DNA from: a virus
DNA: 26,223 nt
IMG/VR virus record: IMGVR_UViG_3300047095_001329
Coordinates: 1-26,223 of that record
Strand: one strand, 5' to 3'
Below the pieces are notes generated by a model, which was given only the letters and a program-made list of their open reading frames with translations, did no database searches and had not been told where the DNA came from. Positions 2,204-22,848 of the stretch are shown piece by piece. Every line of letters begins with the position of its first letter. The first letter of the stretch is position 1. A program made the position numbers and the translations under genes.

Positions 2204-2237
2204 GTGGTCTGCTATGTGAAGTATTATAGCAGACCAC
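2204..2237 (-). terminator. 11-bp inverted repeat, probable terminator of the long fibre/lysis operon, overlapping P2
   Basis: Arms GTGGTCTGCTA (2204-2214) and TAGCAGACCAC (2227-2237) are perfectly complementary around a 12-base loop. Read on the minus strand, the stem is followed by TTTGTTT, as expected of an intrinsic terminator for transcription coming from the gene ending at 2259. No T tract follows on the + strand. The upstream arm covers part of the P2 -10 element, so the site could instead, or also, be an operator for a dimeric regulator. Confidence 0.7.
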
Positions 2238-2251
2238 GCCTTAGGTGTCAA
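2216..2251 (-). promoter_or_regulatory. Sigma-70-type promoter P2 for phoH
   Basis: On the minus strand, TTGACA (2246-2251) is followed by a 17-bp spacer and TATAAT (2223-2228), both exact consensus. TG one base before the hexamer gives an extended -10 (TGCTATAAT). Transcription should start near 2216, leaving a leader of about 39 bases before phoH. The predicted start falls in the loop of the 2204-2237 hairpin. Confidence 0.9.
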
Positions 2252-3526: not shown

Positions 3527-4021
3527 TTATAAACTGCACTGATTAGTTGCACAGTATTCAATAAACTTGACCAGGCCCCAACCAACCGCAGAACCAGTAA
3601 GCACAATAATCACAAATGCAAGTGACCACTCTAGCTGCTCTTGCAGTTTTTTGCGTTTACGAGCAGCCGCTTCGCGTTGACGTCTTGCTTCGTGAGCAGC
3701 TTCTAACTCCATAGCAGCAGCACGCTGCTTAATCTTTGCCCACACGTCTACTTTACCGGCTTGCATGAATAGCAGCTGCAGCTCTTTTTCAAACTGCTGC
3801 GCTTGATCAAGTGCCATCTCAATCTGTATAGCAGCACCCATTGCGCTTTTATTGCCGCTTTGCCTAGCTTCTACAACCGCTTTGGTAGCTACACTTTTTG
3901 CGTCAAAGTACTTGCCCAGTGCAGGGCCTAGGGAAGCTACATCATCTACAGTACCTTGTACCTTTTTAATAAAGCTAACGGCCGCCTGTATACCTGCTAG
4001 GGCTGTAATGGGATCAATCAT
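3527..4021 (-). CDS. Tail-anchored membrane protein with helical body, function unknown
   Basis: 164 residues. The N-terminal half starts MIDPITALAGIQAAVSFIKK, a type of opening seen in hypothetical proteins of aquatic myoviruses. It continues as amphipathic helices, then a very basic Ala/Arg/Lys coiled coil (AAHEARRQREAAARKRKK). A single membrane helix (about residues 133-155, SLAFVIIVLTGSAVGWGLVK) lies near the C-terminus, which ends in a short tail with two Cys (CATNQC). A good Shine-Dalgarno (AGGGAG) lies upstream of the ATG. It lies between two other membrane-protein genes with gaps of about 10 bases. The layout would allow an inner-membrane anchor with a cytoplasmic helical body. No function can be assigned. 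Confidence 0.6.
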   Translation of the reverse strand: MIDPITALAGIQAAVSFIKKVQGTVDDVASLGPALGKYFDAKSVATKAVVEARQSGNKSAMGAAIQIEMALDQAQQFEKELQLLFMQAGKVDVWAKIKQRAAAMELEAAHEARRQREAAARKRKKLQEQLEWSLAFVIIVLTGSAVGWGLVKFIEYCATNQCSL

Positions 4022-4624: not shown

Positions 4625-6532
4625 CTATTTATATTGCTGGTTAACCATTTGCTGGTGCAAACGATCACTGCTCAGCTGACGTAGTGCTCGCTGATTGTCT
4701 ACAGTGGTTTGCCTACCATAAATCTCCCGTGTTGCATAAAATTTAGCGTCTAGTAACGCCAGTCCTAAATATTGTTGGTAGCCAACAGGCTGAGTAGCCA
4801 TTCTGTCCAATGTTACACCGCCAGCAAGCTCGTTGTTTTGTTGTTCACGGCGTACGTCTTGTGTTTGGCTAGTAACAGTTTGTGTGCTTAGATTGGCTTG
4901 CGGATTTAAAAAATCACTTAGTGGATTAGTTCTGTCTAGCAGTGCCAGTGTTGTGCTAGGCTGTGTTTCCGGCTCCACTAGTCTTGCCAGTGTTTGCTGT
5001 TGTTGCTGTAGTGGCTGCTCTTGTACAACAACTTGTGGTGCGGTATCCACCGTTTGTGCACGTGCAACAGCTTGCTGAGCTTGTGGCTGCACAACCAATT
5101 CTTGTTGCGGCGGTTGTGGTAACGTATTTGCCACTTGTTGCACTGTAGGCTCCACAAGAACTCGTGCTATGGGTGCTGCTTGCTGTTGTTGTGCGGGCGG
5201 TGCCACAACAACTTGTTGAGCGGCTTGTTGAGGCACCTGTAGCTGTTGAGCTGGCGCCACAGCAGCTGTTTGGGCTTGTTGCACAAATGTTTGCTGTTGC
5301 TGTTGTTGCACTTGCAAAACTAAACTCTGGTCTGTTTGTTGTGTTGCCTGTTGCACCATAACAGGCTGGGTTGTTTGCGTAACCAGTTGTTGTGTAATGT
5401 CCTGTGTTGTGCGCTGTGTAACCACATCCTGTTGACGCTGTGCTGGTTGCAGTGCAACCATCTGCGTTGTCGCTACTTGAGTTACCACTTGCTGGTTAGT
5501 GCTAGTATCTTGCTGTTGTTGCTGAGATTGTTGTGCTGTGGCAACGGCTTGTTGCTCTGTGCGTTGGGTAGCTTGTTGTGCAATCTCCAGTGCTTGCTGA
5601 ACTGCACTGGCTTGTGTTTGGCGTTCACGGTCTTGATTGCGTGCTATAATGCTGAGCGCAAGCTGCGTATTTCCAGCTGGCTGTGATTGCTGTTGCTGAG
5701 CCTGTGGTTGTGGTGCAGGTGCACTTACAACTTGCTGCGTAGTTTGTGTTGCGGCCACTGTTGTAGTTGCCTGTGGCTCCACAACAGTCTGCGCAGTGGG
5801 GGTAGTTGGGGCAGGTTGCTGTGGCACTAGGCTATTTAGTGCGGCTAGGTAGCCACTGCAACTAGTGCTGTACAGTGGATTTGTGGTGCAAGGGTCTACA
5901 CTGTACCGTAGTTGAAAACTTATGTTATTAACTTCCGGTCCGTACGGTCCCGCCCAAAAGTTGTTGTCGCTGCCTACAAAGCCGTACCTGACTGTACTTA
6001 AGCTACCTAGCTGGTAGGGTGTTGCAAAGTCTTTGCTAAAGTTGAAGTTTGTCCAGTTAAACTTGTAGTTTAAGTCGTACTGGTTATTTTCAACTACAGC
6101 ACCACTGCTGTTAAAGAATCTTACGTATGCGCTAAGCTGGTCTACACGACCGTCGTCCCAGCCGTTGCCGTTTTTAGCAGTAAACCTGAAACTATACCCG
6201 TTTACCTGCAACCCAGTAATTTGTGGCAGTAAGCTGGCAACTACTTGCACTTGGTGCAAGTCAGTTTGGCCATAGCTAAAGTTTATGTTGTTGCCTGGTC
6301 TGATGATGGCGTTTGGACCGCAGTATCCTGGGTCACCTCCACGCCAGCAAGTTAAATTATCTTGATATACACCACCCACCCAGGTACTAGGCCCGCCTGG
6401 CTGTGTAACCTGCACCAGATTAGGTGTAGTGTATACTTGACCAGGCTCCAAGGTTTGTGCATTAGAATCCTGCCAGTTTATAGATAGCAGCACCAAGCAA
6501 AGCACCGAGACCAACTTTTTTGTATGTATCAT
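4625..6532 (-). CDS. Exported protein with conserved N-terminal domain and long Gln-rich region
   Basis: 635 residues. Residues 1-26 form a signal peptide ending DSNAQ. Residues about 28-232 are a conserved folded domain rich in aromatic and Asn residues (TCWRGGDPGYCGPNAIIRPG, NGNGWDDGRVDQLSAYV, RYGFVGSDNNFWAGPYGPEV). It ends in DPCTTNPLYSTSCSGYLAAL; this combination occurs in uncharacterised secreted proteins of marine and freshwater phages. Residues about 235-515 are of very low complexity, dominated by Gln with Thr, Val, Ala and Pro, including runs of five to six Gln. Residues about 525-635 are again ordered (TLALLDRTNPLSDFLN, GYQQYLGLALLDAKFYATRE). The gene starts inside the upstream gene, sharing 71 bases; AAAGGA before the ATG supports this start. 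It is probably periplasmic or outside the cell; no enzyme motif is seen. Confidence 0.72.
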   Translation of the reverse strand: MIHTKKLVSVLCLVLLSINWQDSNAQTLEPGQVYTTPNLVQVTQPGGPSTWVGGVYQDNLTCWRGGDPGYCGPNAIIRPGNNINFSYGQTDLHQVQVVASLLPQITGLQVNGYSFRFTAKNGNGWDDGRVDQLSAYVRFFNSSGAVVENNQYDLNYKFNWTNFNFSKDFATPYQLGSLSTVRYGFVGSDNNFWAGPYGPEVNNISFQLRYSVDPCTTNPLYSTSCSGYLAALNSLVPQQPAPTTPTAQTVVEPQATTTVAATQTTQQVVSAPAPQPQAQQQQSQPAGNTQLALSIIARNQDRERQTQASAVQQALEIAQQATQRTEQQAVATAQQSQQQQQDTSTNQQVVTQVATTQMVALQPAQRQQDVVTQRTTQDITQQLVTQTTQPVMVQQATQQTDQSLVLQVQQQQQQTFVQQAQTAAVAPAQQLQVPQQAAQQVVVAPPAQQQQAAPIARVLVEPTVQQVANTLPQPPQQELVVQPQAQQAVARAQTVDTAPQVVVQEQPLQQQQQTLARLVEPETQPSTTLALLDRTNPLSDFLNPQANLSTQTVTSQTQDVRREQQNNELAGGVTLDRMATQPVGYQQYLGLALLDAKFYATREIYGRQTTVDNQRALRQLSSDRLHQQMVNQQYK

Positions 6533-8057
6533 CGACTTTTTCCTTTACTGGAGTGGGTACCTTTTCAGGATTCTGTTCCCAAGCTGTTCTAGCTTGGTCA
6601 CCGATTTTGCCCTCGAAGGGGCAAGGTGTGCCGGCTTGCATCATTGCATCCCACACACGTCTATCCTGGCACATTGTAGCAACTGCGGCTACTTTCATGC
6701 CCATGTCGTACAGCGTCTTGCTTAGTTTTAAGCGTTCGCAGTTCATGTCGCGAACAGTGCCGCCGCTGCTGGCGCCTAAAATCTGTGTTTGAATACTGCC
6801 GCTAGTACCGGTACTGCAGAGATCATTGTTTCCGCCACTCATCATTGTTGGCGCGATTGCAGTTGGTGGGGGTGTGATTACTCGCTGAGTGATGTTGCTT
6901 TCATTAATATTGCGATTAGTCATCTCACCTTGCTGAATATTAGTGTTAACGCTTGTATTTGTGTTAACATTATTATTTGTATTGGTGCTGGTTGCAGTAG
7001 TCTGATTAATATTGCGATTAGTCATATCGCCTGTATTAACATTGGTGTTAACATTATTGCTAGTCGTAGTATTGATATTACGATTAGTCATGTCACCAGT
7101 ATTAACATTTGTGTTAGTATTATTACTAGTGCTAGTATTAATGTTGCGGTTAGTCATGTCGCCGCTGTTAACATTAAAGTTACGATTGGTCATGTCACCA
7201 GTATTAACATTGTTATTTGTATTCACACTGGTACTTTGATTAAAGTTGCGGTACGTCATATCACCAGTGTTAACATTATTGTTTGTGTTCACACTGGTAC
7301 TTTGATTGAAGTTACGATACGTCATATCGCCAGTATTAATGTTTGTATTAGTATTTGTACTGGTCGTAGTATTAATGTTACGGTTTGTCATATCACCAGT
7401 GTTGACATTGGTATTGACGTTGTTACTAGTCGTAGTATTAATGTTACGGTTTGTCATATCACCAGTATTAATATTAGTGTTAGTATTGTTACTAGTGCTA
7501 GTATTAATATTGCGATTTGTCATGTCACCAGTATTAATGTTATTATTTGTATTAGTACTGGTTGTAGTATTAATATTGCGGTTTGTCATATCACCAGTAT
7601 TCACATTATTGTTTGTGTTTACGCTGGTACTTTGATTTACGTTATTGTTGTTGTAGGTAACTGTACCGCTATTAACATTGTTGTTATTATAGGTCATAGT
7701 ACCAGTGTTAACATTGTTGTTAGTCACTGTACCACTTTGTATATTTTGGTTAACGTTAGTATTAGTGCTAGTACTAGTATTTGTGTTGTTATTTGTGTTG
7801 GTGCTGTTTACAGTACTGGTACTAGTGCTGTTGGTATTACTATTAGTAGTATTATTGGTAGTAACAGTACTAGTGCTATTACTAGTACTGTTTGTGTCTA
7901 CCAAGGTTTTGGAGTCGTAGGTACCTTGATTTATTAAGGTAGTGGTATTGGTGGTCGTGCCGCCCGTCGTACCAGTTGTACTGGTATTAGTAGTAGTTTG
8001 AGAATAACTTATACTGCTAAAACTCAGCAGTACCACACATAAAATTCGCTTTAGCAT
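6462..8057 (-). CDS. Exported Asn/Thr-rich repeat protein with Cys-containing C-terminal domain
   Basis: 531 residues. The signal peptide is MLKRILCVVLLSFSSISYSQ. Residues 21-105 are Thr/Asn/Ser low-complexity. Residues about 105-385 are tandem repeats built on G-(D/E/T)-(M/V)-T-(N/Y)-x-N. The Gly positions 155, 177, 199, 221, 243, 265, 287, 299, 321, 343 and 377 are spaced 22 or 12 residues apart, or their sum, 34. The C-terminal domain (about 410-531) contains four Cys, ERLKLSKTLYDMGMKVAAVA, and AGTPCPFEGKIG, a motif I recognise from secreted proteins of other aquatic phages. It ends in a hydrophobic Gly-rich tail (GLGALLGAAIYKLAG) that may insert in a membrane. Strong Shine-Dalgarno GGGAGG. 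It lies directly downstream of the endolysin. The repeats could form a fibre or beta-solenoid; function is unknown. Confidence 0.72.
   Translation of the reverse strand: MLKRILCVVLLSFSSISYSQTTTNTSTTGTTGGTTTNTTTLINQGTYDSKTLVDTNSTSNSTSTVTTNNTTNSNTNSTSTSTVNSTNTNNNTNTSTSTNTNVNQNIQSGTVTNNNVNTGTMTYNNNNVNSGTVTYNNNNVNQSTSVNTNNNVNTGDMTNRNINTTTSTNTNNNINTGDMTNRNINTSTSNNTNTNINTGDMTNRNINTTTSNNVNTNVNTGDMTNRNINTTTSTNTNTNINTGDMTYRNFNQSTSVNTNNNVNTGDMTYRNFNQSTSVNTNNNVNTGDMTNRNFNVNSGDMTNRNINTSTSNNTNTNVNTGDMTNRNINTTTSNNVNTNVNTGDMTNRNINQTTATSTNTNNNVNTNTSVNTNIQQGEMTNRNINESNITQRVITPPPTAIAPTMMSGGNNDLCSTGTSGSIQTQILGASSGGTVRDMNCERLKLSKTLYDMGMKVAAVATMCQDRRVWDAMMQAGTPCPFEGKIGDQARTAWEQNPEKVPTPVKEKVDDTYKKVGLGALLGAAIYKLAGF
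6905..7745 (-). repeat. 66-bp tandem coding repeats (22-residue period with 12-residue half units)
   Basis: The DNA inside the 6462-8057 gene repeats a unit of 66 bases (22 codons), in places 36 bases (12 codons). On the + strand it shows recurring blocks such as GTCATATCACCAGTATTAA. Adjacent copies are about 80-95% alike by eye. Because the period is a multiple of three and all copies stay in frame, these are protein-level repeats. Confidence 0.9.
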
Positions 8058-22809: not shown

Positions 22810-22848
22810 AAAAAAATACCCTGCCCAATGGTTTGAGCAGGGTATTTT
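22810..22848 (-). terminator. Rho-independent terminator of the Ig-repeat gene
   Basis: Arms AAAATACCCTGC (22813-22824) and GCAGGGTATTTT (22837-22848) pair perfectly over 12 bp around a 12-base loop. On the minus strand the stem ends in a run of seven T (22816-22810). It lies about 40 bases past the stop codon at 22888 and directly before P1. Confidence 0.93.

Follow-up and report, generated by a model that had tools for sequence, protein, structure and literature searches.

Bacterial chromosomes have known sites where the terminator that closes an operon overlaps the promoter that opens the following one. At Salmonella tufB-secE and other ancient operon junctions, inter-operon terminator-promoter overlap affects expression and fitness, according to the account of Brandis, Cao and Hughes (2019) given in PMC7055797. 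The nusG-rplK junction of E. coli K-12 (L361:1321-1370) was read directly and has the promoter TTGCAC-17-TACAAT, the hairpin arms AAGGCGTGAGATTG/CAATTTCGCGCCTT and the tail TTGTTTTTAT. One arm lies within the spacer and the other past the -10 element, with the T-tract behind them, the same layout as in the phage element described below. The E. coli junctions rpmJ-rpsM (TTGCAA-17-TAGATT with GCTGGCTA/TAGCCAGC) and rpsQ-rplN were similar by eye. In phage phiX174 (L296:3956-3981) the TH hairpin GCCTCC-AAATCTT-GGAGGC-TTTTTT is located at 3956-3980, and the RefSeq start of the pA RNA, 3962, is the first base of its loop. A recent published model has the pA RNA mostly cut off by TH (PMC11527146). 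As the annotated start is a loop base, the pA RNA should instead escape TH, contrary to that model.

Transcripts that differ in the arms they carry are also known from IS10 and IS50. External transcripts contain both arms of the fold-back structure and fold, while resident transcripts, begun between the two arms, contain only one. The fold hides a ribosome site and acts on translation, whereas in the element described here it would end transcription. In E. coli the ampC attenuator is the frd terminator, a single hairpin which closes one operon and stands beside the promoter of the following one. This hairpin is included in full in the ampC transcript and attenuates it, unlike the arrangement proposed here.

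The element studied is located on the minus strand of a 26-kb IMG/VR virus record, IMGVR_UViG_3300047095_001329, of which all 26,223 nucleotides analyzed are called the window. It separates an upstream block with tail, lysis, and membrane genes from a downstream unit on the same strand that begins with phoH. The upstream block ends with a gene (2259-2492) that encodes 77 amino acids and had no family match. PhoH, encoded at 1497-2177 with its ATG at 2177-2175, is 226 amino acids long (PF02562, E = 5.1e-69; phrog_170) and is the first gene read from the promoter P2. A second gene of unknown function (834-1487, phrog_2859) follows, and a sequence scan placed a conventional strong terminator at 799-834, closing the P2 unit. 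The upstream block is headed by P1 (22778-22806, minus strand), the sole other perfect promoter in the window. A separate terminator is present directly upstream of P1 on the same strand (22813-22848) and is adjacent to the -35 element of P1, not nested with it. Between the tail and lysis genes, at 4625-8057, two low-complexity structural proteins are encoded, a Q-rich protein of 635 amino acids and one of 531 amino acids with NTN/GDMTNRNI-type repeats.

The lineage of the window is T5-like (Demerecviridae), as judged from a 100-kb relative, G002. The terminase of G002 is 48-50% identical to those of T5-like Vibrio phages and its T5-type SbcC-like gene, a nuclease of the D12/D13 type, is 35% identical; the comparison was made on G002, as the window does not contain these genes.

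A sequence scan identified P2 at 2251-2223 as a perfect extended sigma70 promoter, TTGACA-17-TGCTATAAT. The sequence-only reading had described a perfect consensus promoter with a 17 bp spacer here, and this was borne out. P2 matches the sigma70 consensus at 12 of 12 positions, and it also has a TG ahead of the -10 element. The -35 element TTGACA is at 2246-2251 and the extended -10, TGC-TATAAT, is at 2223-2231 with TATAAT at 2228-2223. From the promoter spacing, transcription is predicted to start 6 to 8 nt past the -10, at 2217-2215. Repeat copies of the motif were sought in the record and the exact form occurred once.

An inverted repeat overlaps P2. Read from 2251 to 2197 on the minus strand the order is TTGACA CCTAAGGCGTGGTCTGC TATAAT ACTTCAC ATAGCAGACCAC TTTGTTT. 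The 5' arm, GTGGTCTGCTAT, occupies 2226-2237 and runs from the promoter spacer into the -10, of which it takes up the first half. The loop, AATACTTCAC, spans 2216-2225 and includes the last part of the -10 together with the discriminator. The 3' arm, ATAGCAGACCAC (2204-2215), corresponds to the initially transcribed sequence of P2, and the T-rich tail TTTGTTT follows at 2197-2203. The repeat and the T-rich sequence behind it had been recognized in the earlier reading, where the stem was given as 11 bp; it is 12 bp long and 100% complementary, with a loop of 10 nt. Folding gave the hairpin by itself -18.1 kcal/mol. The surrounding 71-nt region folded at -20 kcal/mol compared to -10.05 ± 2.54 in shuffles (z = -3.9). 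The stem begins 21 nt after the stop codon of the upstream gene, and among relatives this distance is 14 to 24 nt. In E. coli a trailing ribosome can reduce termination at such a distance (PMC4824070). The T-rich tail of the window element is moderate. In sequence terms the upstream block is followed, just past its last gene and on the same strand, by a hairpin and T-tract of the intrinsic terminator type, and P2, which serves the following block, overlaps this hairpin on that strand. No Rfam RNA family matched within the window above the gathering score.

The bacterial overlaps likewise combine a terminator and the next promoter on the same strand in one element. They belong to chromosomal ribosomal and RNA polymerase operons, with a fitness effect measured at tufB-secE, whereas the window element joins a phage tail and lysis block to phoH. 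The promoter of the window element is much stronger and its arms vary widely between relatives. In phiX174 the pA RNA likewise lacks the 5' arm of TH, but there the discriminator, which follows the -10, forms the 5' arm in place of the spacer, the -10 is weak, and the phage is an unrelated single-stranded DNA phage. The layout is therefore already known, from E. coli operon junctions and phiX174, and what is new is the setting and the unusually strong comparative evidence.

To obtain relatives, IMG/VR was searched with PhoH, giving approximately 200 loci, and the bases before each phoH start were extracted. The nested arrangement was found at the phoH junction in 61 distinct sequences from related phages, and their core stems were of 41 different sequences. 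The promoter was highly conserved. A -35 of TTGAC followed by A, C, or T was present in 61 of 61 elements, the 17 bp spacer in 60, the TG in 58, and TATAAT in 47, with one-base variants of the -10 in the remainder. Loop length and arm sequence varied, and arm pairs were wholly replaced, as in GTGGTCTGCTAT/ATAGCAGACCAC in the window, GTTGAGGTGAT/GTCGCCTCAAC in L171, GCCGTGGTAA/TTACCACGGC in L212, and CCGGTGG/CCACCGG in L225. The T-rich tail, defined as at least four T in the nine bases after the stem, was present in 57 of the 61, above the level in shuffles of the same bases.

The changes in the two arms were matched. Across the 61 elements the 5' half paired with its own 3' half at a mean of -17.1 kcal/mol, compared to -8.4 kcal/mol with foreign halves from elements with PhoH below 82% identity and -7.4 kcal/mol with shuffled halves, and none of 5000 permutations of the partners reached the observed mean. 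A set of 18 representatives less than 90% identical in PhoH gave -19.2 for own and -10.8 for foreign halves (0 of 20000 permutations). In alignment A2, 75.7% of cells were paired in a nine-pair helix in the register of the window, compared to 54.1 ± 2.1% after shuffling. The A2 covariation score was 0.552 against 0.212 for the shuffles, which do not keep relatedness, and it was 0.11-0.22 once the helix was slid by 1 to 3 columns, a control which does. RNAalifold predicted no consensus structure on a MAFFT alignment of all types, because the stems occupy different registers. A count of named structures and the arm-swapping test were used in its place. Compensatory change in the arms, which the sequence-only reading had proposed looking for in related phages, is thus clearly present, and the conservation in 61 elements together with the covariation indicates that the overlap of terminator and promoter has been maintained by selection.

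Other states of the junction were also found. L277, L258, and L283 have a canonical terminator with a T-tract at this junction but lack the promoter, and Stenotrophomonas phage ANB28 likewise has a terminator without a promoter before phoH. In L213, L215, and L216 the promoter is present, and a hairpin instead follows the start. Hairpin and promoter are both retained in L209, L241, and L243 with a T-tract that is poor or absent, and these three loci offer a natural test of a role for the hairpin beyond termination. On the PhoH tree the nested state requires eight changes, at least four of them on well supported branches. The elements of L209 and L241 are almost identical although the two are far apart on the tree, suggesting that recombination probably also swaps phoH junctions between phages.

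Nested elements were rare elsewhere. A rule placing the predicted start in the loop with at least 10 of 12 promoter matches gave nothing in T4, T5, three T5-like Vibrio phages, T7, P1, P22, phi29, M13, Mu, lambda, or phiX174. Weak cases in these phages were at about the level of chance, with T4 slightly above it. Applied to 1.9 Mb of loci, the same rule returned the phoH junctions and three other sites, of which G001:21250 and L198:5704 look genuine. The first of these (L285) is weaker, with TTGATT-17-TATAAT within CCCCAAACT/GGTTTGGGG and a tail of ATTTTTTATT, and lies just past a tRNA-like sequence. The second (L198:5705-5760), from an unrelated phage, has TTGACA-17-GATAAT within GAGGACGGAT/ATCCGTCCTC and a tail of TTTTCGTTTG and follows a thyA-like gene. 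In the two 100-kb relatives no nested element besides the phoH junction reached 11 of 12 promoter matches. Perfect promoters of the form TTGACA-(16-18)-TATAAT numbered 16 per 100 kb in G001 and 10 in G002, compared to 0-1 in T4, T5, T7, and P1. No transcriptomes of this phage group were found in the literature.

The 50-base element is probably both the terminator of the upstream block and the promoter of the phoH unit, with the RNA begun at P2 escaping the terminator. Polymerase arriving from the tail and lysis genes would copy both arms, the hairpin would form during transcription of the T-rich tail, and the RNA would end near 2203-2197. Polymerase recruited at P2 would start at about 2217-2215, between the arms. 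As this predicted start is at the border of the loop and the 3' arm, RNA born at P2 would lack the 5' arm and hold the 3' arm only. The earlier proposal that operon RNA can form the hairpin and P2 RNA cannot agrees with the folding predictions over the 61 distinct elements, in which read-through RNA folded at -15.3 kcal/mol and the first 34 nt of the predicted P2 RNA were nearly unstructured at -1.0 kcal/mol. Unable to fold the hairpin, P2 RNA would continue through phoH and the next gene to the terminator at 834-799. The stem lies where the sequence of a sigma70 promoter is least constrained, in its spacer and in the stretch transcribed first, and most of the -10 is in or beside the loop. Because of this position the arms would be free to drift as long as they remain complementary.

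That a promoter and an inverted repeat overlap by chance is a reading with a negligible claim. Strong promoters are generally abundant in these genomes, and nothing further speaks for it. It is contradicted by dinucleotide shuffling of the entire window, repeated 100 times, in which both strands together gave two perfect promoters in total and none with 12/12 matches was nested in a stem of 10 bp or longer. The conservation of the element also contradicts it, and the covariation of the arms already refutes it. The inverted repeat could also be an operator, with a phage or host regulator controlling P2 from half-sites straddling the -10 and the start. A perfect palindrome centered near the start is in the classic position for a repressor, and early-region promoters of these phages have palindromic -10 regions. 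A dimeric regulator calls for conserved half-sites at a fixed spacing, and the 41 different stems and core loops of 3-16 nt do not show them: the distance between the arms shifts in small steps rather than by helical turns. G-U pairs, which break the symmetry of the DNA, are common among the elements, the stem is followed by a T-rich tail, and three relatives have the hairpin and tail without the promoter. Since loops and arms vary and G-U pairs are common, an RNA hairpin is favored over a protein operator, and the regulator site offered as an alternative in the earlier reading is very improbable. In the early region of G001 and G002 (L089, L104, L109-L113) the -10 region of several perfect promoters is palindromic, for example GCCAAAATTATATGTTATAATTTTGGC, and a second strong hairpin follows at once in the leader. 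These have the appearance of a repeated, regulated early-promoter module.

If the structure acts as RNA, it might serve as a 3' end or as a stability or processing structure of the mRNA, with termination elsewhere or dependent on Rho. The poor T-tracts of L209, L241, and L243 and the closeness of the stem to the stop codon are in keeping with this. It is nevertheless quite improbable, given that the tail exceeds shuffles of the same bases in its frequency of 57 in 61 and that the terminator-only relatives have a canonical T-tract. Hairpin and promoter may instead both be active but mainly interfere with one another, which would make the element, instead of a simple boundary, a switch between the late operon and phoH. 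Polymerases from upstream would block P2, or open complexes at P2 would block polymerases from upstream. A terminating polymerase must cross P2 and would stop approximately 13-20 bp downstream of its start, which fits such interference. The sequence offers nothing that separates it from a plain boundary, and the roles of switch and boundary can coexist with the terminator and escaping promoter favored here. Interference as the main function is considered rather unlikely.

Taken as terminator and promoter in one, the element could also couple the two units, with a polymerase that finishes the late transcript staying on P2 and restarting without leaving the DNA. This is a speculative and unlikely extension. 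In vitro, E. coli polymerase that has reached an intrinsic terminator is able to remain on the DNA after termination, slide along it, and initiate again (PMC6978380, PMC6978322). If such recycling does take place, the output of phoH would follow the flow through the tail and lysis operon.

The nested element is a clear example, well conserved among T5-like freshwater phages that form a family. The 61 nested terminator-promoters come from one setting, in which the arms have been replaced many times while the promoter and the pairing were kept. Evolution thus argues strongly that overlaps of this kind are under selection as RNA hairpins and did not arise by accident. The series extends the layout of E. 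coli ribosomal operon junctions and phiX174 to tailed phages. The elements offer compact natural insulator-promoter parts, and they make the recycling of polymerase from terminator to promoter directly testable.
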